The notes beneath the pieces are model-generated. The model did no database searches, was not told where the DNA came from, and saw nothing but the letters and a program-made list of their open reading frames with translations. From Stramenopiles sp. TOSAG23-6 (Eukaryota; Sar), in contig LT635994.1 of NCBI GenBank assembly GCA_900128565.1, positions 1 to 24,897 of the forward strand: a stretch of DNA of 24,897 nucleotides, given 5' to 3'. Positions 1 to 24,000 of this stretch are shown here, piece by piece (the stretch's first letter is position 1; each line of letters opens with the position of its first letter). The position numbers and the translations under genes were made by a program.

Positions 1-3000
1 AGCACTTCCATTAGTATAAGATTTTCCTCCTTGAATTTGAATACTTCCAGCATTTTCTTTGCTCGTTCCTGTCTTCAGTATCAAGTCCCCGGAAGGACCA
101 TTTGATGAGTCTCCTGTGAGTAATTTTGTCTTACCACTACGAGAAGCATCAGAACTTAAAATATCAATTGACCCGCTTAATTGATTACCTGTGCCACTAG
201 ACAGTGATACAAATCCACCTCTTATCGTTCCATTTCCTGCTTGTATGAAGACATCACTTCCAACTGAAGTTTTGCTAATTCCTACATTCATCTTTACATG
301 ACCACCATATTTGGAATATAAATTAATACTTCCACTTTTACCATTGGATGCAGTACCAGAAGTAAGAGTAGTAGCTCCACTTGAAGAGTCAGCTGCTGAA
401 GATATGAGAATATCTCCAGATTTAGAGTGTTTGCTTATACCACTTGTGATACTGATAGATCCGCCAGTATATGCTGATGAATTGCCAGAAGCAATATTCA
501 CTTCCCCACCACCAGATACAATACTTGCCTTACCAGCGCTTGCGATATCTGAGGATCCTGATAAAATTACAATAGACCCGCTACTATCCCTACTGCTATC
601 TCCTGTTTGCAATGATAATGAGCCGCTCATCCCTCCATCGGCAGTGGAAAATTGTGTAGTGCCAGTGGCCTGTGTACCACTTCCAGAGACGACACGAATA
701 TTACCTTGAAGTTCAATTCCTCCACCCCGTGTTTTTGAATCTGATGATTCAAGAAGGATAGAATTACCCGTCATTTTTATTTTACCAGATGATCCCTCCG
801 ATGCTCCACCTGAGAGTATTTGGACACTTCCACTCGTTTCAGAACTATTACCAGATGTGATCGAAACTATGCCTTTACTGTTTAATCCAATATTACCACC
901 AATAGAACCACTTGTAGAACCTGCTCTTATGTTGACTACACCTGCATCTTTATCAGANGTACCAGTTTGTATATTAATTGATCCTGCTGTAGCAGATGCG
1001 CTTCCTGTATTGATTGATACATCACCAGATTCATCATTGGTAGAATCGCCTGAAAGAAGATTTATCGTACCGCTAGTTTTTCCAGTATTACTTCTCATAT
1101 TGATATCTCCCCCAGATTCATTTCCTGAACCACTGAATACGGAAATAATACCTCCAGTTGTGGTGCTATTTCCCGACTGAATAGAAATGTATCCTCCAGC
1201 GAAATCATTTGTATACCCTGAATGCACTTGTATGTCACCACCTTTCTGTGAAGATACATTTACAATTCCAGTGACACCATTGGTAGTCGGTCCAGAGCTA
1301 AAGTCAACATCTCCGCTTGAAGAGCCAACCGATGAAGTAACATTAACATCACCAGATTTATATGTTTGACTAACACCACTTAAGACAGTAATATTTGATC
1401 CATTTGAATGCATCGATGAACCACCACTGATTTTTATAACACCCCCTTCATAATATGAGCTACCCACTTCAATATTAATGTTACCAGCCGTAGAATTTTC
1501 TGTGGAACCAGAATGTACATTTATTGCAGCACTACTATGTGTTTCGTGATTACCGGTCTTTAGTGTCAAGTTACCACTGGCATCGCCCTCTGCACTAACG
1601 AATTGTATTTTACCACTAGATTGGCTTCCTGAACCAGATGACATCACAATATTACCATAAAGTTCAACGGAACCACCATGTGTACTTGCTTTTGATGCAT
1701 TGAAAAATACTGAATTTCCATTCACGTTAACTTGACCGGGTGATCCGTTAGATGCACCACCTGACACTATTTGTATACCCCCACTTGATTGGTTACTATT
1801 AGCGGATGTGATAAAAACGTCACGTTCACTATTTAATTCAATCGATCCACCAATAGCTGAATTTGTTGAACCTGCCGTAATTTTCACTGCGGATCCTTCT
1901 GTTTCAGATATACCACTTTCTATTTCAATTGATCCAACCAAATGTTTTGCGGATGCTGTTCCAATAGCAACATTTCCTGATGGACCAATGTTGGCGTCAC
2001 CAGTAGAAAACTTAGTATTTCCCGTATCCCCATTTTCAACACGAGCTGAAAATATATCCAAAGTACCACTAGTTGTATGGGATACCCCAGTAAACACACG
2101 CACATCCCCGCCATTATTTTCAGCATTGCCAGCAGATATGTTTATTGTACTTCCACTTGATCTTTTCGATGTGTTCCCATGAATAAAAACTCCACCTACT
2201 GAAGCTTCATTTGAAGTACTCGTCATAATATGTATATGACCACTGTTGTCATTAGAATTGCTAGTATGTATATCGACTGAACCTGTTGCGGTTGTTGATA
2301 CTGGTGATTGAATACGAACATCACCAGAAGAGATTTTGCTTCTACCACTGATTATTTTTACATCCTGTGCAATCATCCCATCGCCACCTCTAATGATCGA
2401 ATTACCATCATTTCCTGGTATAATAAACGAGTCGCCTTTTGAGTTTAATTTGATATCAGCAGAGTTTGAATGCATATGACCATTCCCCGTTGCTAAACTA
2501 ATACCTCCACTTGTCTCAGCTTCTTGGGATACGACTCTGACATCGCGATTATTTTCACCTAATGTACTTGCACCGGAACTTAAAAAGATATTTGCATCTT
2601 TTAATTTAATATAGCTACCTTTCTCACCATTACGAATGTAAATATTTCCCTTGGATTGACTAGAGTCAATATGTATATTCCTGTCCTGTTCTTTGATACT
2701 CGATGACCCTACATGTATTTTTATTCCATGTGAAATGTCAGTAGTGGTAGAATTTCCCGACGAAATGTGTACGTTTCCAGATGTGCCATTATCTGCATTG
2801 CCCGAGAATACTTGAATATTTCCAGATCTACTTCCTCTAGCTGATTCAACTGTTACAGTATTTTCATTCGCAGCACCACCCTGAATAAACACATTTCCTC
2901 CCATAGATCCAAATTGATTAGTATTGGATCCGGATATTTCGACACTGCCTCCAATAAGATCGGTTTCGTCCGATGATCCTGCCATGATTTGTATATTCTT

Positions 3001-6000
3001 TGTTACATCAATGGAAACAACACCGGATGTGTCAAATGAAGATGCGCCTGAAGAAATAGCAATATTTGCGCTGCTCTTAGATGATTGTGTTGCGATTGAA
3101 ATTTTACCCCCAATTGATGTTTCACCTTCTCCAGTTTCAATAGATATATTTCCACCAGAAGAATGATTTCCAGTAGTATTACCAGCAGATATATCCACAA
3201 CTCCGCCACCATTTCTTTTGGTATGACCAACTGATATAGATATTGATGAGTTGCTATTTAATAGTGAACTTTGACCAGAACGGAGTACTAGAGAACCAGA
3301 AGAACCTTTTGTGGCTGCACCACTATTTATCATAATTTTACTTGTGCTGCTAGAGCCTTCCGAACTTGAGACAATTATATCCCCACTTTTCAAAGAACTT
3401 GCACCACCGCGTATAAATAATTTACCCCCCGGTGCGTTCTGTTTACTACTACCTGATTCAACAATTATATTTGTTTCATTATTTACATTGTTGCTTTCAC
3501 TAGTACTACTATGGATACGTATATGTCCACTGTGAGATTCTTCGGATGCGCCTGTTGTAATACCAATAGATCCGCTACTTTGTTCTGATAAACCTGACTG
3601 AATTAATACATCTCCAGTGATCAGAGAAGACGATGCCGAAGTAAGGAGTATTTCCCCACTTTCTAATTTGCCAGTACCACTGAATAAGTCAATACTACCA
3701 CTTATATTATCAGAGGATCCTGCTGCAAATGAAACACTCCCACCCGAAGTTGTAGTTTCAGTACTTTTACCAACAATAAGTTCGATGGAATTTTCTTCTT
3801 TTCCTGCAGAACTTCCAGTGAAGACTGAAATATTTCCAGTTAATCCAGATATAGAAGTACCAGTAAATATTTTTACGGAGTTACTTTCTACAGATTCTGA
3901 TGTGAAAATGTCCAATTCGCCAGATGTACCCCAAATTTCAGCGTTAGTACTATGCCCTGATTGAATTCGAACAGCACCGTTTTCCTTTTCACTTGACCCA
4001 GAAGTTAATCTCACCAGCCCTCCATTACTTTGGTTTGAGTTACCTCCATTAATACTAACACTTGCAGAATCCTGAAATACGAAATTTCCATCTCCAGCAG
4101 CGATGAAAACTGTTCCGCCGTTATTTTCCTTTGAAGATCCACTCTGAAGAAATAATTTGCCACTTGTGGACCCAACATCCGTATGAATATCAACATCTGC
4201 TCCCTGAACAGTAAAGTTTCCATCAGATCCAGTTTGCTTTGGACTAGTTGACAAGCCCACAGATATTTTTATTGGTTTTCCAGCCCTATTAGATTCCCCT
4301 GTATTTAATAAGATATTTCCTGAATTTAATGTTGAACTGCCAGATTTCACCTCAACTATACCCGACTGACCTTCAGTACTAACACCAGTGGAAATACGCA
4401 CAATACCAGAGCTTCTATTCGCCTCGGGAGTATGTATACTAATATCACCACCATGAGCAGCATTCAATGTAGAGTTGCCACCCATTCCTTTAATTGATTC
4501 ACTTTGATTTTGTTTAATTGAATTTTCACCAGCTATTAAAGTTATATTATTGGCATTTACATTTGACATTCCAGATGAAAATGATATAGAGCCACCCAAT
4601 TTATTATTAGTAGATGACCCGTTACCAGTTGAAAATAGAACACCTCCAGATAATCCATTTAGCGCATTTCCCGTTTTTAACACAGCATCACCAGATGACA
4701 TACCCGAATGTGTGCCTAACGATACACCGCCACTGGGTAACATACCTGAGGACCCAGATGATATTGCAACATTACCATCCATTTTCCAATTTTTAATTTG
4801 ACCTATAGACTCTCCGCCATGAATGCGCACATTACCAGAGATTGCTCTGTTGTGAGCAACACCTGCAGATAAATGAATACTACCTGAATTTCCTGAAACA
4901 GATGTCCCTGAAATTACGTTTACACTTCCTGTAGCCGTGTCTTGGACTGAACCGCTGCCAATACGAATACTACCCGTACGCGAGCTAGTAGAAGAACTAA
5001 TAGAGACAACATCATTTTCAGAAATAAGGCCAACTCCTGCACCAATTCCATCTGATGAATTCCCAGCTGATATTTCTACAGCACCACCCAAGGTATCTAC
5101 TCCTACTTCATTTGATATCTGGGAAGATCCAGAAATATTCAGATTTCCGCCATCATTTTTTTCAGAAGACCCAGGTTTGAGCACAATACCCGAAGTATTT
5201 AATGTCATTTTACTATCACCCGTGGTAATATATATACCCCCAGCTATAGAATGTTGAGTATGATCTGACTCACTCGAGAACGTCACATTTCCAGATACCT
5301 CAAAACCGTCACCACTGGTGAGCTCAAGGGTTCCTCCTTGAGAAAGTGAAGAACTTCCTGTAATAACGTTAATATCAGAGCCTTTCAGAAATCCCATACC
5401 GCTTTTTATTTTCACAGAGCCACCTGAAGAGTTATTGGATGAACCTGACACAATATCAATAGAATTTGATGTTTCTAATTTGATATTTCCAGTATTCAAT
5501 GATGCATTTACAGATGATATAACTACATCACCAGTTTTTTCTGTGTTGCTCTTACCGGCTACTACAGATAAACCACCGCTAGTATTATCAACCGATGAAC
5601 CTATGCGAAATGTAATATTTGCTCCTTCAGTTGTAGAATTACCAGGTAATATAGCTATTTCTCCACTTTCAATAGCACTTTTTGTCTTGATGACAATATC
5701 GCCACTTTGTATTCCAGATTGGGTATTTATTGCAATAACACCTGAATTATTCTCATTATGAAATGTTTTTACGGCAACATTACCACTTTGTCCTGCTGTA
5801 GTACTTCTCAAGTTTATATTGCCTCCTTTTGAATCATTATCTATCCCACGACCACCATCAATTAAGACACTGATATCATCCATGTTTCCACTTGCTTTCA
5901 AAGAAAATGAACCACCAACACTTTTTTCGCCCGATTTACCGCTTATAAGTTCTATGTTACCTGTGCCTTCATCTAATGATGTTCCTGTGCCAATATGTAT

Positions 6001-9000
6001 ATCCCCACTGTCATCTATAGCATTTGGTGATAAAAGCTTTACTTCACCACTTGAATAACCATCTGCACTTGACATGCCAAGAAATCCACCAACATCATTA
6101 ATAGAGTCCCCCGTTGTTACTTCAACGTTACCTCCGAACAATGATGCTGTTTTCGAATTTCTTTCGGAACCTCCAGATATAATAATCGACCCAGCGGAAT
6201 TATTTGAGGAATTTCCAGTGGAGAGGGAAAGTTGACCACTTGATGCACTTGATGTCCCACTTGATAGTACAACATATCCGGTTGAGCCATATTTTGAATC
6301 ACCTGTTGTAACATTAGCAGCTCCAGAATCTATACTCGAAGTATTTGTCTCCAGTGTCATATTTCCACTTGTTTTGCCCTCATGTGTGCTTCCAGATAAA
6401 GCAACAACATCACCGCCTTTACCTGTTGCAGAAAACATTTTCCCTCCAGTTATCGATAATTGGGCACCCTTTTTGAATGTAGACTTTCCTACTCCAATTT
6501 GGATCTCGCCTGAAGATGCATCCATTGAAACTGCTGTTCGAAATGATACAATACCAGAGATTCCTTTCGATGAATCACCTGTGACAATAGACATATTTCC
6601 GGAATTTGTATTCGGAAATGACTCAGAAGATGATAGTGATTCTATTATCATATGTCCACTATTTAAATTTTGAGTACCAGTAGATAAAATAACATTCCCT
6701 CCGTCAGAATTATGCTTCGTTGAAATGCCCCCTTTAATGGACACAGTTCCGGCAGATTCTCCACCTGATTCACCAACAGTAACAAAGATGCCTCCAGAAT
6801 TGTCTCGAACTGATCTACCAGAAAACATTTTTATATCCCCTGATTTGCCCGAGAAAGATGAGCCCGATTGAATATCGATACTTCCGGATATACCATTATG
6901 ATCTACACTTCCTGAAGATGATATACTCACAGTGCCACTTTCATACTCACTACGCCCTGTTTCAAAGTGAAGCGCTCCTCCATACCCATGTCCATTTACA
7001 TTTCCAGCAACCAAAACAATCGAGCCACCATTTTTTCCCTTACTTGAACCAACATTCATTGAAATATCTCCACTATTACCTGAAGAAGAAATGCCTGATT
7101 TCAAAATCACATCTCCGCTTATTCCAGAATTTGTTGAACCAGAGGCAATAAATATGGGACCACTTGATTGATTCGAGGATTTACCCGTCGCAACCGATAT
7201 TTTGCCTGTATCATACACATCAGAATACACAGAAGAAAAGTTGACGTGCCCACTTGTATCTTCATCGCTCATTCCAGAGTAAACAATAATACTGCCACCT
7301 TTCTTCGTCGATTTTGCTGAATTTGACTTTGTACTGCCCCCAACAACTGAAACACTGGCTCCGTTTCCTGATGAAGAAACACCAGCTGAAATATTTATTG
7401 ATGCGGTATCTTTTGAATTACCTGATGTTATTGCTACATCGCCCGAAGCCCCTGTTGGTGCATCGCCAGTAATCAGAGACAACCTACCTGAAAATGTATC
7501 CTGTCTACCTTCAATAACTGCCGATGTTGATACTTTAATGTGTCCACTCTCCATTACCCCAGTACCACTACTCAAACGTAAAGAACCCCCAGTAGATGAT
7601 TTCCCTATTGCTAGACCTCCGCGAATACTTAAGTTCCCTGTAGAAGAGCTGTCTCTACTTATACCGACACCTAAAGTAACATCGCCAGAATTTTCATGTG
7701 CTGAATCGCCAGATAAAATACTTACATTTCCAGAGTCCCCTTTGACCGATGATCCTGTCTGAATAATCGTAGCCCCGGATATTCCATTGGTACCGCCACT
7801 GCCGGAAGACAAGGAAGCACTTCCGCTATTCCTAGGTCCACGACCCGTTTCAAAACGAAGAGCACCTCCATTTCCATCTCCATTTGCATTTCCAGCAACA
7901 ATCGCAATCGATCCACCTCTTGACAAGTCACCTTCTCCAGCACTGATATAAACACTACTTCCTTCGCCAACGGATGAATATCCTGTGCGTACAGATACAC
8001 TTCCACTTGACGAATTATGTGCATCACCAGTCCGAAAAATAATAGGTCCACTGGAACCATCAGCTGACTTCCCTGTTACTATAGACATAATTCCGCTGCT
8101 ACCAGGAGATGTGACACTAGATGATATAGATGTGAAAGAAATGCTACCACTTGAATATTGTTTTCCCTTCCCCGACAAAACAACAACGCTTCCTCCTCGA
8201 GTACCTGTTCTGTGTGCTCCAATCATCTCAACGTCCATGCTTCCAAGATTCATCATACTTCCACGAGATTCAACACTATGACCAGTTGCAATTGATACCG
8301 TACCGGTTCGACGCTCATCAGATGAACCAGATTTTATGTCAACTTTGCCTGAATGGGAATTACTCTTACCTGTGCGCAATTCAACTGACCCACTCTTAAC
8401 ATGATTCCCACTTGCTGTTGATATATCAAATCTTCCAGAATTTAATTCACTTGATGCACCTGTTTTCATTCGAATTTCATATCCTTTAGTAGATTTCTTT
8501 GAGTAGTCTGGTAATGCTTCAATGTGTAGATTTCCTGCCAATAATTCTTCACTACTCCCTATAGAAAGCGTTACATCTCCAGCATTTCCACGATTTGTGT
8601 CATCAGTTTTTATTGTAATGTTGCCAGCTTTCCCAGCACCATGATGTATTCCAGTAGTAAGTGAAATGTTACCACTATAACCGGTGTCGGACTCGCCAGT
8701 ACCCACGAACAATGAACCAGTGTGAGAATTATTCAAATCATCACTGTTGCCTGTTATTATCGATGTTATTCCTGTAGATCTCTCGAAACTACCTGAACTA
8801 GCGTTTAAAGACCCACTCTCGACAATAATGGAACCTCCAATTTTCGAATGGGAAATACCGGATGCAATATTAATTGGTGCGCTAAAATCTAACTTCGAGC
8901 GTCCACTTTTGATATGTATGACTGCACCATCATGGTATTGTGTTGCGCCGACAGATAAAGTCATTGATCCTGAGTTCTCTAGTTTGCTTTTTCCTGTCTT

Positions 9001-12000
9001 AATATGAATGTGCGAACTTGACGATTGTCTTGAATCAGGCGAAAAAACATGAACATCTCCGCTACCCATTCCTTGTTTTTCAGTTAAACCGCCGCTTTGT
9101 ATATCAATTGACCCCCCGTCTGAATTAGTACTTGACCCAGCAGATATATCTAAATGTCCTGACTGAACAATAGCGCTCCCTGTACTAATATTTATATCTC
9201 CACTATCAGAATGATATGTTGCGTCACCAGTTTGAAATTCAATGTGTCCACTGTTGACTGCTGTTTCCGATGATCGAACCAATATCTCACCTGATGTATA
9301 ACCATCACCACTAGATAGTTCAATAGAACCTCCTACATTATTTCCGCTGACAATGTTCGCATCTACATCACCAGCACGAATGATAACACTTCGAGGTGCA
9401 TTATATGCATCCAATATATCTTTTTTTGATTCACTATCATTTTTGGTATTACCAGCGGCAATGTAAATAGACCCAGCAGTTCCGTTTTCCGCAAAAGATC
9501 TACCAGAGTTGATTGTTATATTACCAGATCTGTCTTTTATACTATTTCCTGTTTTAAAAGTAATTCTACCACTGGCACCTTTAATCCCACCTTCCCAATA
9601 TTCTGTTGCATTATCAGAAGAAATAGATAGACTGGCACTTTGTCCTGGAGTGTTCGGACCTATATTGAGCCTTCTTTGAACAGACTGAAGCGCCGAAAGA
9701 AGATCCATAGTAATTGCAATTTTGTCAACTTCATGAAAGTTATCACGGGAAAAATTTGTGTTTGATAGTCGAAACTTTTCAGTTGTATAAACATGTTCTG
9801 GGAAAATAGATTTTACTTGCTGGGCGATAATTCCTCTAACTTGATGTTTTACCCCATAGTCACCAGAGTCGAGGTGTCGTACTCTAGCCCAATCAGGGGT
9901 ATATCTATACTTTTTCATTTTTAGATCTTGAAGTCTTTGTAATATGCTATCTACATCTTGGTTTTCAATATTTTTTTTAATTCTCTCATCTGAAACATCT
10001 TGTGGATAAATCTGCGCAGGGACATGCATGAGTACTTTGTCTTTCCATACTCTAAACACTGTTGTTCCTTGTTTAGATTTATCTGTACCACCCTCAGAAC
10101 GCTCACCCCCGGCATTAACGTTTGCAAGTTCGTGACGAACACTGAACTCTCCGGTGGACTCTACAAGGTTTAGCGACACATCGAAACCACTATATATTCT
10201 AACATCATGACTATCTGTATTTGTAGACAGAGATAATGCACCTCTACCTGATAATTTCATAAAACTACCAGACTTATTACCTTTTAATTCGATATTTCCA
10301 TATTCCTCGTTTGAATCTCCGTGGCCTTTTCCCGGTTGCACGGTAACACTACCACCAACGGAAGTCAAAGAATCCCCCCCAAAAATTTTGATGGAACTGC
10401 TACTGCAAATACCACAAGCTTGTCGGCAGTTTAGAAGAATATCATTTTGACCAATATCAGAATATCCATATAGAGATTTTGCATTTTTGCATGAACGACT
10501 ATTCCAAGATAAGCATTTGTCACCTTTTTCATCGGTGAAATCAATTGTGTCGCAACATTCGCCAGTTCCGCAAATACCAACGGATGTTCCCGTCGAAAGG
10601 ACAATACTACCGCTCTTACCTTTATTGTTATTAGCAGTTTCAACTGTAAACCCCCCACTAAGATGTGTAGATTCCCCAGTCAGTATGTCAATTTTACCAC
10701 CTTGTTCAAAATCAGAGTTTGTTTGGCCAGCAATTACGGTAATATTTCCACCGTTTTCGATATCAACGGAACCACCTGAAAATGTGATGTTTCCAGCAGT
10801 ATTACTGGCAGCTGCTGTTTCAATATAGATACTACCAGGTACTGAAGACGTTGAATCTCCAGTCTCCAGAATTATGTTTCCTCCTGCAAAAGTCCTACCA
10901 ACTAAAGAACCACTCAAAACAGGACTATCGCCAGTGGCGATTGAGATAGACCCACCTTTGTCACTGGTCGAAATTCCGGCAAAAATATTTACATCTGATC
11001 CCGTATAGGTATCTGTGTTACCGCCGGAAAGATTGATATCACCACCTGTGGGAGTTTCAATGATTATTGGTGCAGATGAATCGGAGCTTGCTAATCCTGT
11101 CTTAATTTTTAAATCATTACTTTTACCATTGAAAATACCATCACCTGTTTGTATCATTATACCGCCACTTTTATCTATGTCCTTTGAGTCTAATGTCGTT
11201 GTGCCACTCTTAATACTAATGGAACCTCCTTTTGTATTCTTAGTAATAGCAGCACCGGATTTTAGGATAATCGAACCGCCACTTAAATTTGGTGTTGTGA
11301 TCGATTCCCCAATAGATAAACCGGTAGCAATCGAAATGCTCCCGCCTGAGCCTCTTGCAGACGACCCACTAACAAGAGATACATAGCTAGAGTTTAATGT
11401 TTCTTCAAAAGAATCTCCTGTCACTAGCTCGATATTTCCTGTGGATAATGCGCCTTCTTCTGGTGATGTAAATGCAGAATACCCTGTTTTAACTTCAATA
11501 GACCCGGTTGATGTTGTAATCGGATCAAGATTCCTTACTGATTCACCAGAACCTTTTCCAGTTGACACATTAATTTCACCAGATGCAGCAGAGTACGGAA
11601 CTACAATTTTTACTTTTCCAGATTGCAAATAACTCTCCCCTGTTGATATCAACGTGTCCCCACCGAGTTTAGCAGATTGTGAAGTTACAGTTGCTTCACC
11701 AGCTGAAAACTCAATGCTTCCACCATTTCCAAATGTAGTACTAGCACCTATACCCGAAGTTAAAACTTGATCCCATGGCTTGTTGGGCACAGTTCCACTT
11801 GCAAAGATAATATCTCCACTAAAGTCACCAGCAGCGCCACCAGTAGAAATCGACATACTTCCTACGGTAGTCCAATTAGATCCTGCATTTAAACATTCTT
11901 TCTTTGTTTTATAATTATTGTTTTCACAAACACCACTTCTAGCGCCATTATCCTTTAAAATATCCTTATTTGAACCAGTCTGAATTACAAGAGAACCAGA

Positions 12001-15000
12001 CATTGAAGATTTTGCCGTGTTTACCGTAATGTCACCAGAAATTCCAACATCTTCATCAGATGTAAAATAAGTTTTACCAGATACAATATCGATATCTCCT
12101 CCCACATGATCGAACAAATCCTCAGTTTCTACCATAATACTCCCTGCAAAAATATCGACATTGCCTGTGGAAACTCCACCAGCTTCTTTCTCTGACAGTG
12201 CGTCACCTACTTTTATGCTCATTGAGTTGCCACCCGGCGAACTTTTATTTGATCCCGTATTCATGGAAATACTACCTGAGCGTGTCCATGTATACCCCGC
12301 GGTAATGCATTCATCTTTATCAAGGATATTAACATCTAAACATCTACCCATAACACTATTCGGAGAGGAAGCAGATGTTTCAAATACAATTGAACCCGAG
12401 GTAAAATCATCAGAAGTATCAATATTTATGCTTCCACTAGCAGCCTTTTCTGTATTACTAATACCTGTCGATAATATAATATCACCACCAGTTCCTACAT
12501 TTTTATTATCTCGATTTCTTGTTTCCCCAGCTTCTATACTTATATTTGAAGAAGTTTCTCCAAGTCCACCTTTCATCCTAAATTCTCCAGCTTTTGTATT
12601 TGCATTTCCAGTTTTCAGTAAAACACTTCCTACAGAAACATTTTGCCTAGATGGTGAAATGACATTACCAGAAGATATTCGAAAAGCACCGGATTCACCC
12701 CCAGTCACCGTCTGTTGTTTTGTTTCTAGTTTGACATCCCCACTTGTACCAGAGGATACACCCTTCCCAGTTTTTACATGAATATACCCACCAGACATTT
12801 TTTGAGCTTTACTACGCCCTCCACCTATAAAAAGTTCCCCAATAGATGTACTACTCGTACCTGTACGAAATAAAATACCAGCAGCTTGGCCAGAATGAGC
12901 ATGTCCAGTATGCAATGTAATATTACCTGAATTAGATGCAAAGCCTTTACCAGTAGAAATACCAAATGACCCGGATACTCTCGAAGTAGATGTAGTCATA
13001 CTTATTCCACCACTATGACCAGTATTCCCAATACCCGAAGCTAACTTAAATGAGCCACCTTGAAAACCATCATCAATTGATACACTATTTCCTGCAACGA
13101 AGGAAACGCGGCCTCCTTTTGTAGAAGCACTTCCAGTACTTAGTGAAATCGAACCTGAATTTGTTTCACTAGAAATACCATTACCCGTTTCAATATCCAA
13201 ACTTCCGGACATTCCCTTATTTGCGGCACCCGAGTAAAGCGAAATAACACCTGATTTACCTAAAACTCCACTATCTGGTGTTTTTATATCCAGATTTCCA
13301 CTACTAGATTTTTTGTTCATTCCAGATGTTACTTTCGTATTTCCACCATGAACATTACCAGCACTTGAAATATCACCAGCAGAAATTTTTATTCCGGCAC
13401 CGATAAGCTTTTTAGCTACACCTCCAGAAATATGTATTGAACCAGCAGCACTAGTTGATGATACCGTGTTGCCCGTTGCAAATACTAAATGACCTGTATT
13501 TGTATTTTCGTGCACACTATTTCCAGTGGCGATAGAAATCAGTCCACTGGAGCCCATACTTCCTCCATTAACGGTGATTAATTTAATATCTCCACTTGAA
13601 CTCTTGGCACTAAATCCAGACAATACATTAACATTACCTCCAGATGCAATCGAATTTGAATTGCCAGCATCAAAAGACAAATATCCACCTTCTTCGCCGT
13701 TTTCGTTAGCTCCAACTAAAACATTTATACTACCACTAGAGCCGTAAGTTGCCTTACCAGTATGTAAAGTAATTTTACCAGAATTTCCACCTTTTGCTTT
13801 ACCTGTATGAAGAGATATGCTGCCGCTATTACCTAATATACCCCCTTGTGATGATACAACAGAGATTAATCCAGATGTACCCTTTGATGAAACATTCCCC
13901 GTATATATACCGACTTCTCCACCAATGTATTGTCCGTTGACGCTTCCAGCACCAATAAAAAGTTTCCCACTCATTTTACCTTCATTTGTTGTAGCGTCTC
14001 CGACAAAAACATTTACATCACCTGCTTTATCACCCATTGCATTTTCAGTGTTAACGGTAATATCACCAGCATTGCCCTGTACAGAATTTCCAGTATAAAC
14101 GTCCAAATGACCACTTTTTCCATTTTCCCCATCAATATCAGATGTTGCGAATACGACATTGCCACTTCCAGATTTGTATGTTGACCCACTTTGTAATAAT
14201 ACTCCGCCACCATTTCCATTTTTGGATTTTCCTGCTGTAATCAAGATATCCCCAGTTTCTTTATCCTTTATCTCTTTACCAACTTGTAACGTAATATTAG
14301 ACGGGATGCGAGACACATCTGTTTTCAATATGATACTCCCACTCGCTCCTTTTTCAGCATGACTTGTTTCAATAGTAATTTTTCCCGACATTCCACTTGT
14401 ACCGCTATTTTGAGAAAGAATCTTAATATTTCCACTGGACGTTTTTGTAGCATACCCTGAGATGAAGTTCACATATCCACCAGATGATGCCATTTCAGAC
14501 ACTGTATTAGTTTTTGCACCACCTTTAATGCTGACATGTCCTCCGCTTAGTGGGCCAGATCCCAACCCGGATTGAATGAAAATATTACCGCCTTTACCAG
14601 ATGAAGCGATATATGAATTTAAACGAATGTCACCCGAAATACCGTTTGATGAAGTTCCTGTAGAAATGTTCAAACTTCCACTAACTCCAGAGTTTTTTCC
14701 TGGGCTTTCAGAATATACATTTAGTATTCCACTTGTTGCCCCATTCCCTAAACCTTCGCCGGTATGAAGTGTAACTACACCCCCAGTACTTTCATCATTA
14801 GTACTACCTGCACTAATGACGATATTACCTCCAGATGTATCACTATCAACGCCGATTTCATTCATTCCAACTTGAATTGTCAAATCTCCAGACTTTCCAA
14901 TTTTCGCGAGTCCTGTTTCTAACTTAATATTACCACTATTTTTCTGGTGACCTACGCCTGTCATCATAGTCATAGAACCACTCACACCGGAGACGCCTGA

Positions 15001-18000
15001 GTTTGGTATATTGATCGAAATGTCCCCACTTGATGTCAACGCACCAAAACCAGTACTTAGTTGTAGTTTCCCACCAGATAAACTTCCGTTTCCTGACTGA
15101 ATAAGCACATCTCCACCATTGCCTTTATTATTTACTCCTGTGGCAACCAGAATAGAACTTCCTTGGTCCATGTCTGAATTCCCTGTCTTGAAATGAATAG
15201 ACCCGGAATAACTTTCACTTGACAAACCAGTCTTTAAAGTTAATGTGCCCGATGCAGTAGATATTTTACCTGTACCTGCACCTGATTTCATTGATGAAAT
15301 AAAAATATCGCCACTATTCGTCTCTTGGCCTAGACCAGATATAACCGCAATTTCACCACCCGTAGAGGAACTCTTTGTATTTCCACTTCTAATATCAACG
15401 TTGCCTTCTTGTACAGTTGAACTTTCACCACTCCCAACAACGATGCTGATAGATCCGGATACTTCTGAAGATGATGATAGACCTGACTTCAGTAGAATAT
15501 TTCCACCACTCCCATTCATTTGATTCGATTTTCCACTCTGGAGTGAGATATTTCCAGTAGCTCCTGCTTCTACATCTGTATTTGATGTTTCAATAATCAA
15601 GTTTCCACTGGATTCTTGCATACCTTGACCACTGTGTAGTTGTATATTACCCCCGGAGGACGAAGTCGAAGTTCCAGCATGAATGGCTACATTAGCACCA
15701 TATTGCATCCCATTTCCAGCTTTCACACTTATGGGACTACTTTTTCCATAAGCAGGACTATCCGAAGTTGCTATTAATATAGATCCAGAGTGTGGCCCTC
15801 CTTCGACCTTACCAGTATTAATTTGAATTGTTCCACTATTTCCTTTGATACCTGCTTGTTTTGTCATGATGTCAAAGTTTCCACTTGATGTGTTTGAACC
15901 GACACCAGTGTTTAGCAGTATCGTTCCACCACTTTGCAGAGTGGAGCTTCCTCCATTAAGAGCAATCGTACCCTTAGGATTTGAATGCGAGCCAGAAGAT
16001 GAACCAGCATCCAAAATGATTTGGCCTCCTCTACCGGTGATTGCTTTGCTCGTAGCTACATATATATGACCACTAGATAATTTACCACTTTTAACTTTCC
16101 CTGTATTAATGCTTATAGTGCCACTGTTTGCGTTGCCACCAGAACCAGCGGTGGGTGACATCACAGTCACAGCACCACTTGACGAAGCATTACCTTTTCC
16201 ACTTTTTACTACAACTTCACCACCACGCTGTGCTTCAGTATTTCCTGATGAAATTAAAACACTACCACCAGAAGAATATAATTTATTGGATTCCCCGACA
16301 GTCACTTCAATATCTCCTGATTTCCCTTTTATTGTTTTTCCTGTCATGAGGGCAATCCCCGTTTTTGAAGAAGTTGTTGAAAGAGAATGTTTTCCAGTTT
16401 GAATTACAATATTGCCACTTATACCAGCTGCATCTGCTTTTGGAGTACTCATAGTTAGATTCCCACTGGTAGACCCCTTATCTATGCTTTTTCCTGTTTC
16501 AATTTCAATATTTCCAGAAACCGAATTTTCTGCAGAAGTTGATCCAGATTGAACCTTTACTACATTTGCATTTCTTTCAGTTCCGCCAGATACTGAAATA
16601 GTTATATTACCACTCAAGCCCTCTGAAGATGAACCCGTTTGGATCAAAACATTCGAAGAAAAACCAGATGCTGTATTTCCTGAAGTTATTTTAACATCTC
16701 CTGTATGTCCTCTATCAAGACTAGTTGCACTACCCAGTTTCAGGTCACCTGAATTTTTCAGATCTCTATCAATATTTGAATCTATTCTTGGAGAAGAAGA
16801 AATTACGACATTACCACCATTTGCCGAAGTTTCCTCTGTAATACCAGCAATCATTTGTAAACTACCACCATCTTTATTTACAAAACCATCGCCCGACTGT
16901 ACAATAATATTACCAGTTGATGATGAACTTGCTCCTATGGGAGCACTAGATACTATAATATCAATTGCATTAGAATGACCTGATATTGTATTTCCAGTAG
17001 TCAGTGTTGTATCCCCACTCGCCCCTTTTTGTCCGCCATTTGCCGACGACATTTGAATATTGCCGCTAGTTGAGTCTTCACCTCCACTAAGACCACTCTT
17101 TATATCGATAGTTCCACCATAACTATTCGAACCACTTGACCCGACTACTTTACCAGATTCTATAGTTAAAGAATTGCCTGTGCCTGTATTTCCATTTCCG
17201 GCACTTGCAGTGATGTTTCCACCAGATCCATTTGTAGAATTACCACTAAATAATGAAACATGACCAGAATCTAAAGCATTGCCACTGCGGAGAACAATAT
17301 TTCCAGAGGGAACCTTGGTTGTAGCAGAAACCCTTTTTTCGGTATTTGAAGAAGCAATGAGCAGATCCCCACTATTCAAGGAATACGAACTTCCTGTCTG
17401 TAACAGAGCTTCACCAGATGGGTCGCGATTGAAACTTTGGCCTGTACCAATTTGAATTTTCCCACTTCTCCCATATATACCAGCTGAAGAACTTTTTATA
17501 ACCATCATACCACTCGAAGTCGACCGACTCAAACCAGTCTGCATAACTACAGATCCTCCAGATAGTGACTCGTCATCTGATATTGCACCAGCCTTCATGC
17601 TGAAAGTGGCACCGTTTTTTGTATCACCCGCACCAACCTGGTACATAATACTACCGGCTGATCCTACAGTAGCACTTCCTGTTGATATTTGCAAGGTCCC
17701 AGTATTTCCATTTGTCGTATTACCTGAGTATATATTTACATAACCACTATTTTCTCCATCGTTGTCTCGGTGATTTGAATTTAGAATAACATTTTTCTCG
17801 CCATTAAATCGAAGAGTTCCTGCTTGTATCTCTAATGTTGACTTTTCATCAAATGCTGAATCAAGAAGAATATTCCCTCCTTCAAGTGTTACCTTGCCGC
17901 GCCGTCGAGTTGAAGATGCAGCCTGGCCAGTCATAATTTGGATACCACCCGAGTCTTTCATTGCAATTCCATCTCCTGTATGAAATATAATTTCACCACT

Positions 18001-21000
18001 AATACCAGCTGTCCCAGAGTCTTCTGTTTTAACCTGTATATCCCCACTTGATGACATCAAACTTTTCCCAGTAGTTAATGAAATATCACCCCCCTTTCTC
18101 CTCCTATCAATCATTGGAATGTCGCCAGCATTTATTGTAAAGTTTCCTCCGAATGTGTCAACTAGTTTACCTTTACCAACATACAATTCAATGCTATTAG
18201 GGGGCTTATTTATAAAGACATCTTTCTTTGACTTCTGACTATCTCCCGTTTCAAGTAAAATATTTCCACTACTTCCACCACGAGTTGATTCATCTGATTT
18301 CACAGAAACTCCTGTCATGAGCTCAATTTTTCCACTTGAACCTACTGTAGCTGCCCCAGATTTAATAGTAATCGTCCCACTAGCATTGCCATCAGCAAAT
18401 CCATATTTTCCAGAATTCTCTGTGTGTAAAATGATGCTTCCACTACTTGTTCCTTTTGAAAATCCAGAATTTAATTGAACACGACCTCCACTAGAATTCT
18501 CTCTATCAGTTGCGACGCCAGCTACTACGGTGAAGCTACCACCTTTTACAGATTCTTTGTTTCCACCACCTACAATTAAGTGAATGTCACCCGCTTTAGG
18601 AGAGTCAGATTCAAATATTAATCTCTCCATATCCGTAGACCCAGTTGAGAGTGAGAGTGACCCAGACGATGATTCCTTTTTAGTTGATGAACCGGTTGCA
18701 ATTTGAACGAAACCCGAAACTCCTTCACTTGATTTTAATGCATTTCTTGTTGCAATAGAAATGTTTCCACTTGAAGTTTTCTGTGACATTCCTGATACAA
18801 GTCTTATTGAACCCCCAGATACACCACCAAGTCCAGTATTACCCCCAGCAAGTTTTAAGGCACCTGCAGAACTAAGATGACTATCACCAGCAGAAATTGC
18901 CACTTTTCCTGCTGTACCTAGGATTGAATTTCCAGTGACAAAAGACAAAAGACCAGAGCTTCCTTTACTTGAAGTTCCCGTACTTATCATAATATTACCG
19001 GATTCGCCATTTTTTCCAGAATTTACCGTTGTAAGGCTAATATTACCCGACGAGCTACTTTCGCTGTAACCTGCTTCTAAAGAAACTTGTCCACCTGTTT
19101 CTCCATATGACGTGTCTACCGAACCTTGGATTTGACCCGCTTTCACTATTATGTCGCCTCCCCTTTTTTTTAAACCCTTTCCTACGGTTATTGAAATATT
19201 ACCACCAACGTGAGAAGCGGAGCCAGAATACATTAATAATGATCCAGAATCTTCATTGGGTGCTTCACCAGTACTTATAGAAATATCCCCGCTACTTCCA
19301 GATGTACCTGAATTGGCCGTTTGTACATGAAACGAGCCACTACTTGAAAGTATTTGTGTCCCCGTAGTTATATCAATTGCACCACCGTTCTTTGTAAGCG
19401 ATGTGCTATCTTTAGTATGCCCAGCACTTATAGAGACTTTTCCCCCGTCACCACTTTTATTAAGAGAAGTGCCAACATTGAGCAAAATATCTCCTCCAGC
19501 GCCTTTTGCTGCAGTATTGGTCTCAAGAGAAATTATACCACTACCTCTGGTCTTGGTGGAACCAGTGGATATTGTTGCGTCACCACTTACTCCTTGTTTA
19601 CCTGCATTTGCAGTATTTAAAAATAAAGTTCCACTGTGCAATTCGTCAGAGAAACCCGTCGTCACTTTAATCAACCCACCGACTGAATTACCCTTAGTAT
19701 CTGTATCTCCTGCTGAAATGTTCAAAAATCCGCCCTCGTTTTTGTGTGATATTCCAACAGCCACGCGTTGGTCGCCACCTTTACCATCAGCTGAGGTTCC
19801 AGTTGATAGTAAAAGATCCCCAGATGATGCATGTGCATCACCAGTGTAGATATTTATACTACCACTACCACCTTTATGACCAGATGGCGCGGTTTCTAAT
19901 GTTATTTCACCGCTAGACCTTTTAGAAGAATATCCTGAAATCATTTCAACTAATCCACCTCTACTACTAGTTTTTATATTACCTGCATTCAATTCGATGC
20001 GCCCCCCTTCTTTTGCGGATGCGCTACCGACAGATGCAAGAATATCACCCGCATGACCAAGCTGAGATGAATCACTCAAAATTGATATCTTGCCGCTTGG
20101 ACCATTTTTAGAAGATTTGCTACCTATGCGAATCGATCCACTCTCGCCACTTTTTGTCAAATGCAATGCACCGTTTTGTGTTGCAAGGATAACTTCCCCA
20201 CTCGATGTAGTGAAACTTTTGCCAGATATTACATTTAATTCACCACCTCTAGTATGACTATTTGATGTACCACCTGTGAGAAATAAATCGCCGCCTACGT
20301 CAGCGATTTTATCAAGACTACCATATGTATTACCCGCACGAAAGTGTACCGAACCTCCAACAGCATTTCCGATATCTTTGGTGCTCAATGTATTACCACC
20401 TTGAATAGCGATTTTACCTCCTACAGCTGCTTCCGCGGTAGTGTCTCCAGCATTGCCAACAATTTCACCACCTTCATTTGTGTCCCCTTTTCCCAAAGTG
20501 ACAGAGTAGTCACCACCGTGCCCATTGACACTAGTACCACTTGTAAACTTCATTAATCCAGTTGGACCCAGAGAAGAACTTCCAGTCGTGATGTGAATTG
20601 TACCAGACACGCCTTTTTCTCCAGCATGGGTAGTGTCAATGTATATGTTGCCAGAGTGCCGTTGGACTCCAGAACCTGAGGTTAAACTGATATCACCACC
20701 GGACCTGGCTTTGCTTGTTGTATTTCCGGCATTCATGGTAATAATTCCACCTGATTTTGTGTCACCAGAGCCAACAATTACATCAATATCTCCAGCATGT
20801 TTATCTGTAGAATCACCAGTAGTAAATACAATATAACCAGAATTACCGTTTGATGAAGTTCCTGTGCGTAAATGTATATGTCCAGATACACCTTTATCTC
20901 CTGAATTTACAGTCGATAGAATAATAGAACCGCTTGTTGAAGCTTTCCCAGTACCAGATAAAAGTGTTATCTCTCCCCCAGTTCCTCCAGCAGATTTTCC

Positions 21001-24000
21001 AGGCTCCAAATTAATGATGCCCCCTTGGTTGTCTCTCTTTGTACTATATCCATGTCCCCCAGATAAGATGACATCACCACCAGAACTTTTATAATCATCA
21101 GCAAGACCATGTCCTCCACTCACTTTAACATCTCCTCCTTTAATGCGTTTATTAAACAAAGCTTTATTCGTGTCACCAGCTTGGATATTTACTTGCTGTC
21201 CTGTCTTTTGCCCTTGATTTACAGTAAGAGAAATCGCACCAGAAAATCCATATTTAGCTTCCGATGTGTGAATTCGAATGCTTCCACTATCCTTCGATTT
21301 CTTCAGAGATGCAGATCCAGTTGATATTTGTATTTGACCACTATTTCCTCCGCGGTCATAGCCTGCATTTCTAGTAGATATTATAAGTGGTCCACTATCA
21401 GCCTTTGTGGCATACCCAGTGATTAACGCAATATGACCTCCTGTTCCTTGTACGGCATTGGCAGCAGAGAGTAAAATACTACCCCCTTTTTCGTTGCGAG
21501 AAGTGCCACTAGCAACCCCACCATCAATCGTTACAGTACCTCCACCACCACCTTTTAGCTTACTCAGGGAGCCCATACCACCTCTTATATTAATGTCACC
21601 ACCAAATCCTTTGGGTGATTCTGTATTTCCTGCTTCTAGATAAAATTTACCACCCTCATCACTATTACCATCGCCAACTAGAAGAACAATTGAACCTCCA
21701 TTACCCTTATTTGCTTCACCAGTGACTGTTTTTATTGAACCGGAAGTTCCACCTGTTGCAAATCCAGTATTAATTCCAACAAGTCCACTAGAGCCTTGTA
21801 TTCCCCCAGTGTCAGTTCCAAAACTGACATCACCTGACGAAACAGTCCTGGATGATCCAGATGTTAACGATATTTTCCCACCTTGACCTTTTTTATCAGA
21901 AACGATACCACCAGATAATATTTGAATCATTCCACCAATATCGCCATCATTACTATCACCAACAATAGCACTTATGCTACCACCATGGTTACCTTTAGCC
22001 TTGCCAGTGCTAAGTCGCACATATCCTGATGCTCCAAGTGAAGCATCACCAGTTGTGATATTAATACGATTGCTGCTACCTTTTTGTCCACTACTAACAG
22101 TCAATAATTCAATGTGGCCACTTGATGTATCGGCACCATATCCACTAAGGAATATCATACTACCACCTGAGCCATTTGCAGCAGCTCCACCATTTAATTG
22201 CAATGACCCACCAATGTCTCTTGTTGGATTAGGACTTTGACCCTTTGCAATACCTGCAGTAAAAATGATATCTCCACCATTGCCTCCATCAATATATGAT
22301 TCTGATATCCCTGATCCACCGATAATTTGTACTTTTCCGCCAGTTTTTTTTGAAGAAGAAGTCTCACCAGCAACAAACACGGCACTACCTCCGTCTTTGT
22401 CACTATTTCCAATGGTCAACGTAAAACCCCCACCAGCACCATTATTTGCTTTACCAGTTTGCATTGAAAATTTCCCTGTAGTACCAGCACTGGATGTTCC
22501 TGTGGTTATACTAATTGCTCCACTCCCACCACCTTTCACTCCAGAAACACCACCAGAACCCGAATTTGTATTTTCACCTGCATTAGGTGTAGATATAAAG
22601 ATATTACCGGATGATGTGTAACTAGAATAACCCACATTTAAAGTAATTTCTCCACCAGTATTATGATCGAAAATATTTCCACTTTTTATAGATATGTGTC
22701 CACCTTCAGCAAACGAACCCTTTCCTACTTGAACTTGTACATACCCTGCAGCTCCTCCAGTGGATTGACCTGTACTCATGTATATTTGACCAGAAGAGCC
22801 AGCAGTAGTTGTGCCAGTCTCGAGGTTCATTGTACCAGAAATACCTTGTACACCCGCATTTCCTGTAGCAAATGCAAACACACCAGAGTTTTTCTCAGTA
22901 CTAACACCCGATGCCATTAATAATGATCCACCGTAACCCATGAAAGATTTACCACCTTTGATATCAGTATTTCCAGCATTGTCATCGTTTGTGGAACCTT
23001 TGGCATTTCCACCAATAATTTCAATAATTCCACCATCTCCACCATCGTAAGTGTGTGTACTACTACCTACACCTCCAAATAATGCAATATTTCCGCCAAT
23101 ACCTTCATCACCACTTGCAGTACCTGCTCGATAAATGATACTATCACCTACTGATGACATTCCGTCACCAACGGCAAAAGTCAAGTCCCCTCCACGACCA
23201 TCTTTGGCGAATCCTGTTTGTAACATTATTGCACCTGAATTTGAACTCGAATTTGTACCCGTTGACAATGATATTAAACCAGTGGACTTTACCGAATCTG
23301 CAGTAAAAAGATCAATATTTCCTCCAACTCTGTCTCTGCTTTCCCCGGACTTCATACGGATAGTCCCGGATTGACCATATGAAGCGGTGCCACCTTGGAC
23401 AATCAAAGTACCACCATTATCTCCAACATATGATCCTCGCGAAATACCAGAAGTCAGTTTAACAACTCCTCCACGCCCACCACTATAACCGTCTGTGTAT
23501 AAAGTTTCATCACTTGCACCTTCACCACCATCGAGTAAAATAGCCCCACCAGATGTGGATACTGCAGAAGAATCACCAGCTGATATTGTGACTTCATTAC
23601 CATTTGTTATATCTGCAGCCCCTACTCGCATTTCTATAGTACCTGATTTGCCGTCCCGACTGAAACCTGTAGCTATATTTATAGTACCGGTACTTCCACC
23701 AGTAGATTTCCCAGTCAGGACACCCAATGTGCCACTTGATCCAATGATGCCAGCGTCATTTGAAGCAATCACAACTCTACCGCTAGAAGTAGCGGTACCT
23801 TCTCCAGAGCGCAAAATAATCGAGCCACTAGCACCCATCTCATTTGTACCTGCATCTATTTGAATTCCACCAGCGACACCATCAGTAGAACTTCCAGCAA
23901 TGGCAACTACATTACCTCCTTTACCAAATCCCGCTGAACTTTCTGCTTTGCCACCCGAAACAACAACTTTCCCACCAACACTTGAATTATCAGCACCTCC

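Follow-up and report, generated by a model that had tools for sequence, protein, structure and literature searches.

A giant repeat frame and its internal S74 domain

We analyzed a window of 24,897 bases (contig C44 of genome G000, taken whole), which consists of one minus-strand open reading frame (ORF) of 8,299 codons that is open at both ends. The frame (1..24897, minus strand) encodes a giant Gly/Ser-rich repeat protein with units of ~15 residues, and within the repeat lies the element of interest, a Peptidase_S74 (ICA) domain at residues 4969–5079 (9661..9993, minus strand). An earlier note on this DNA had proposed a self-cleaving S74 chaperone domain in the middle of a giant fiber. Translation reproduced exactly both its coordinates and its motifs, namely SDERIKKN with Ser and Lys five apart, GIIAQQV, and FPEHV. 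The repeat itself was recognized by spacing, autocorrelation, and a consensus drawn from 20 segments. Spacings between loose motif matches were exactly 15 residues in 84 of 324 cases, and the strongest autocorrelation fell at lag 15 both before and after S74, while weaker signals lay near 91–99.

The note had proposed that residues 4969–5079 be checked against the S74 profile. The stop-free translation of this stretch (SDERIKKN...RRLNI) matched PF13884 (Peptidase_S74) over positions 1–58 of the 58 in the profile, with a score of 51.4 bits where the curated cut-off is 22 (E = 1.4e-13). Among solved structures searched by sequence, the best match was the ICA domain of MyRF (7dc3, E = 2.5e-6), and tail-fiber families of PHROGs also matched the domain (best E = 6.7e-17). 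The structural model contained the elements of the ICA fold in order (alpha1-beta1-alpha2-beta2-alpha3-beta-beta-alpha4), plus one extra short helix at the start. Its best fold matches were S74 structures: MyRF 7dc3 first, then 3gw6, 3gud, and 4uw8. We concluded that, by profile, dyad, and fold, the feature is an S74/ICA domain.

The domain begins with the dyad, Ser4969 (codon 9991..9993) and Lys4974 (codon 9976..9978). Dyad conservation makes Lys4974 the predicted partner of Ser4969, and together with the analogy to MyRF it makes Ser4969 the predicted nucleophile and the first residue after the cut. That is, the scissile bond is predicted to be Val4968-Ser4969, as placed from P586-S587 of MyRF. 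Just before the domain, residues 4878–4968 (9994..10266, minus strand; '...VFRVWKDKVLMHVPAQ...') fall outside the 15-residue pattern and form a stalk-like segment of ~90 residues, which is 44% identical between the window and a second giant frame on contig C402 (see below). The note had listed the closing helix (alpha-4) as present, and the model does show it, with moderate confidence, as 18 residues (5059–5076; 9670..9723, minus strand). However, this helix is short, and S74/ICA domains typically have a long C-terminal helix as the core of their trimer. Ten residues separate the conserved Ala from the Gly-Pro of a Gly-Pro-Asn-Thr-Pro that soon follows, compared to 14–23 residues (median 20) from the conserved Ala to the stop in viral S74 domains (n = 20, alignment A4).

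Stalk and domain are flanked by two repeat arms. The N-terminal arm (residues 1–4877; 10267..24897, minus strand) was delimited by the frame, the repeat pattern, and comparison with C402; the C-terminal arm (residues 5080–8299; 1..9660, minus strand) was delimited by the frame and the repeat pattern, and it is open at the contig end. After S74 the repeats resume, and 3,220 further residues follow in the window without a stop, in agreement with the figure of at least 3,200 given earlier.

Position and conservation of the domain among relatives

The earlier note had described known S74 domains as C-terminal and discarded, which fits the viral loci. Viral contigs were scanned with the family alignment, and among the matches listed (600 stretches) 80 of 84 relatives were retained. 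A stop was found 99–174 codons past the match start in 77 of the 80 loci, and the other 3 leave the contig; in 8/80 the match begins one residue in, at Asp. In a second viral scan all 11 of 11 loci reached a stop, 97–119 codons after the match start. Together the two scans, whose counts include near-identical contigs, gave 88 of 91 loci with a visible stop (at 97–174 codons), and none of the 88 had the domain mid-chain. The description does not extend to eukaryotes, because MYRF carries its ICA domain in mid-chain. PMC3742443 places this domain between the DNA-binding and transmembrane parts, and describes the cleaved N-terminal half as a trimer and the C-terminal half as a homo-oligomer that keeps ICA. 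The note's expectation that the chaperone would stay on the C-terminal product if the chain were cut is therefore the same arrangement as in MYRF, so that its cleavage alternative amounts to a mode already known from MYRF, here in a new protein. Among the matches listed from the open-licence literature on S74 in giant proteins, in eukaryotes, or in protists, no such protein was described.

A PF13884 search found three places in the G000 genome. One of them lies in the C402 frame (6,667 codons), which has S74 inside the same Gly/Ser repeat and is partly collinear with the window. The offset between matching stretches of window and C402 is 474–501 for window segments that begin at residues 201 to 1601. 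For segments beginning at 5001, 5401, and 5601 it is 230, 196, and 192, respectively, and for the S74 domain it is 229. Several segments between and beyond the collinear ones match best elsewhere, as expected of repeats. Judging from these sequences, we take C402 to be a full paralogue, S74 having been present already before the duplication; from the offset, the window frame would lack ~410 N-terminal residues. C402 includes the gene start, with a Met, a hydrophobic signal-like segment, and a PSI domain (28.5 bits, cut-off 23.1), and its upstream neighbors are genes for LMBR1 and for a carbon-nitrogen hydrolase. The window frame fills its contig, and host-or-virus neighbors were judged at C402. 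Because of the signal-like start, PSI domain, and neighbors of this paralogue, we read the window gene as a eukaryotic, probably protist, host gene.

Shorter query bands found two metagenome proteins with the same kind of repeat and S74 inside it, P0003 (jgi, 507 residues) and P0004 (ena, 2,394 residues), at 1 of 493 and 1 of 1,966 candidates, respectively. P0004 has a second S74-like start (SDSRIKRDIS) from residue 2385 to the end of the frame at 2394, ~1,900 residues past its first S74 and with a profile score of only 2.6 bits. This second start hints at several S74 modules per giant gene.

Compared with the window copy, the S74 domains of the other three members had identities of 53, 49, and 31%. 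The Ser and Lys dyad was kept in all four family members (window, C402, P0003, P0004), and 24 of 111 columns were invariant, including Ser1, Arg4, Lys6, Tyr29, Tyr31, Ile56, Gln58, and Phe86. We mapped 14 reaction-center residues of MyRF (PMC8326128) via the window-7dc3 alignment; S587 was placed by adjacency, one residue before the alignment start. Of the 14 positions, 12 did not vary among the three closest members, and 10 did not vary when all four were compared; two of the invariant positions differ from MyRF (Phe621 to Trp, Phe657 to Leu). In the window/C402 pair, S74 was better conserved than the four neighboring stretches compared, and the junction from S74 to repeat was similar in 3/4 members. 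We concluded that the S74 domain inside the giant protein is real and well conserved.

Proposed mechanism and alternatives

The MYRF ICA domain (7dc3) is the closest known system. Both are mid-chain S74/ICA domains behind a beta stalk with Ser and Lys five apart, they share YRY, G-I-A-Q, and NF..V.K motifs, and MYRF was the best match by both sequence and fold. In contrast to MYRF, the window protein has thousands of repeat residues on both sides of the domain, is probably secreted, and has a shorter closing helix. No MYRF-type DNA-binding domain was matched by Pfam in window residues 1–4900 at E up to 0.1, and the C402 piece that matches the window's missing ~410 N-terminal residues contained PSI and a sub-threshold Kelch_2 only. 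There was also no transmembrane segment in the 3,220 residues after S74 (top 19-residue hydropathy of the frame, 1.24), the true C-terminus lying outside the window. The window protein is therefore not a MYRF; its S74 module most likely works like that of MYRF.

The chaperones of phage endosialidases and tail fibers (3gw6, 3gud, 4uw8) have the same domain and dyad and gave the next-best fold matches, but theirs are C-terminal and shed (PMC8326128), whereas 3,220 residues follow that of the window. By position, the window protein is not a viral C-terminal S74 fiber. SEA and GAIN domains resemble the proposed working of the window S74 in outline, as mid-chain modules of large extracellular proteins that cleave their own chain into two, but their fold is unrelated and they are not known to need trimerization. 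Protist genomes also encode fibers of polinton-like viruses, large modular proteins that carry S74; according to PMC12220804, these have single S74 copies that are often C-terminal, and the proteins reach up to 3.9 thousand residues.

What was observed directly is the frame, the domain with its mid-chain position in all four members, and the retention of catalytic positions, whereas secretion, trimerization, cleavage, and what becomes of the pieces are inferred. Our preferred interpretation, in which we place fair confidence, is that the domain trimerizes and self-cleaves, leaving two giant pieces of which the C-terminal one keeps S74. The window would contain the greater part of the coding sequence for a giant repeat protein that is probably secreted, either extracellular or at the cell surface, in a eukaryote that is probably a protist. 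Its stalk and S74 (ICA) module would join three chains in mid-chain, and once the trimer had formed, Ser4969 would cut Val4968-Ser4969 with the help of Lys4974. The N-terminal product would be a giant trimeric piece of about 5,000 or more residues. The C-terminal product would be another, of at least 3,331 residues, that starts with and keeps S74, as in MYRF. The two pieces might then separate, or remain together non-covalently. An extension that we find possible but doubtful is that, in a whole family of giant extracellular proteins of protists, S74 domains are trimer-gated cutting points, one or more per polyprotein of perhaps at least ten thousand residues, which would fold as a trimer at every S74 and then be split into several giant fiber segments.

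Several observations weigh against self-cleavage of a secreted trimer. Confidence in the domain model was moderate (mean predicted local distance difference test score, pLDDT, of 65; predicted template modeling score, pTM, of 0.44). The closing helix is shorter past the conserved Ala than in 20/20 viral domains compared, and, placed by eye on the structure-match alignment, it stops before the places of MyRF L692, R695, I696, and L699. Changes of L692 or R695 block cleavage in MyRF, and changes of L692, I696, and L699 are reported to block both trimerization and cleavage (PMC8326128). The positions of MyRF I663 and I667 are not kept, nor are those of K671 and V669 in P0004, whose stalk also aligns poorly. 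The residue before the cut varies as well, from Val (window) to Pro (C402, P0003) to Gly (P0004). The signal-like segment and PSI domain belong to the paralogue C402 and are not seen in the window. Lastly, the conservation of positions may reflect fold as well as catalysis.

The main rival, raised already in the earlier note, is a permanent trimer clamp, in which S74 joins three chains but no longer cuts and so forms a structural knot in an uncut fiber. The short alpha-4, with Gly-Pro and repeats soon after it, agrees with such a clamp, as does the absence of a counterpart to the MyRF L692–L699 region, which is needed there for cleavage. However, the stalk-ICA part of MyRF S587A, which does not self-cleave, still crystallized as a trimer (PMC8326128), indicating that a clamp alone needs no Ser. 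For the retention of Ser and Lys in 4/4 members, cutting is thus a better explanation than clamping; the 10 invariant reaction-center positions also speak against a clamp, and we consider it rather unlikely. The domain could instead be a leftover of an older S74-ended protein, like a virus or phage fiber, behind which repeats were added by duplication or fusion, and have little function now. The tail-fiber PHROG matches and the uniformly C-terminal domains of the 88 viral loci with a visible stop point in this direction, and such a history is possible, but a domain without a use would be expected to decay. The S74 domain outconserves its four neighboring stretches in the window/C402 pair, and its dyad persists in all four copies, so that a leftover with little function is unlikely.

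The frame might also belong to an integrated polinton-like or giant virus, where S74 fibers occur: the polinton-like viruses of protists with S74 in their large modular proteins are one precedent, and an endosialidase chaperone is mentioned for some Ostreococcus viruses in PMC12906663. Such a viral gene is very unlikely, because C402 has a signal-like segment, PSI, and adjoining LMBR1 and carbon-nitrogen hydrolase genes, S74 is described as often C-terminal in those same viruses (PMC12220804), and mid-chain S74 was seen in none of the 88 viral loci with a visible stop. In addition, frames of 20–25 kb would fill much or all of a virus of 14–40 kb, the reported size range. An assembly or amplification chimera, with S74 inside the repeat by accident, would be easier to suspect in a genome of 408 contigs, one of which, a repeat contig, has an end whose sequence is found again elsewhere. 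Yet S74 is followed by repeat in C402, P0003, and P0004 as well, the last two being of different origin, and the junction is similar in 3/4 members, which makes a chimera highly improbable. Self-cleavage of a trimer remains our preferred explanation.

Repeat sequence, further loci, and significance

Shortly before the stalk, a Cys-rich stretch (residues 4776–4831; 10405..10572, minus strand) holds 8 of the frame's 12 Cys. Pfam, searched at E up to 1, gave no match for it, and a reading as ShK-like was dropped because of this. Pfam rows for Phage-Gp8, Kelch_2, S100PBPR, and AAA_32 in the repeat were under their cut-offs and were taken as chance. The structural model of the repeat had a mean pLDDT of 51.6 and was not used, so that the term 'solenoid' would describe its sequence pattern only. 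Three repeat segments had no match in PHROGs, and tblastn against named phage records matched neither the S74 domain nor a repeat segment. When the whole frame was searched against protein databases, 0/139 candidates fell below E 0.001, and two prokaryote genome scans found no relative (0/143 and 0/595 pattern stretches).

Repeat frames also fill contigs C332 (3,588 codons) and C172 (5,064 codons), and run in C237. The exact 52-base end that C402 has in common with C332 does not prove a join, because a near-copy of it (98.2% over 55 bases) is also present within C402. In C237, two frames reach stops after non-repeat C-terminal regions that lack a hydrophobic anchor; if these ends belong to the giant genes, the proteins would be secreted and may exceed ten thousand residues. 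Inverted arms of ~3,443 bases in C237 (L042, L043), 99.1% identical, lead to these two different C-terminal regions, which are 35% identical to each other over 260 residues. The arrangement is either two tail-to-tail giant genes with a homogenized stretch or an amplification chimera.

At C53:19335-20435 (minus strand; locus L010:4795-5895, minus strand), a 367-codon frame combines S74 (46.5 bits, SDKRVKKN) with an ATAD3 N-terminal domain (PF12037, 53.7 bits). By eye, this S74 sits soon after a hydrophobic signal-like start, and two more same-strand frames encode the remaining part of ATAD3_N as well as an AAA domain. On sequence evidence, the locus is a probable S74-ATAD3 fusion gene; a search of the open-licence literature found no pairing of S74 or endosialidase with ATAD3. 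Introner-like elements, ~50–100 bases long and 75–85% identical, were found in five copies and both orientations at presumed-intron gaps between coding frames (C53 ~17,699-17,751, 18,880-18,978, and 19,414-19,508; C402 ~21,612-21,714 and 21,838-21,939). The giant frames are uninterrupted. Searches for a eukaryotic small-subunit rRNA were unsuccessful. Contig C136 (L136:395-4602) carries bacterial-type large- and small-subunit rRNA genes, found by pattern. After them comes a frame that, by eye, we take to be atp9-like, and C136 is thus probably the mitochondrial genome.

S74 domains have two known settings, as end-pieces that are discarded from phage fibers and as the switch in a single transcription factor family. 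If the interpretation is true, S74 in a giant repeat protein, retained in several diverged copies, would be a third setting, the self-division of a very large extracellular chain. This would bear on how cells fold and export giant chains, and on the extent to which eukaryotes have reused a viral folding tool.
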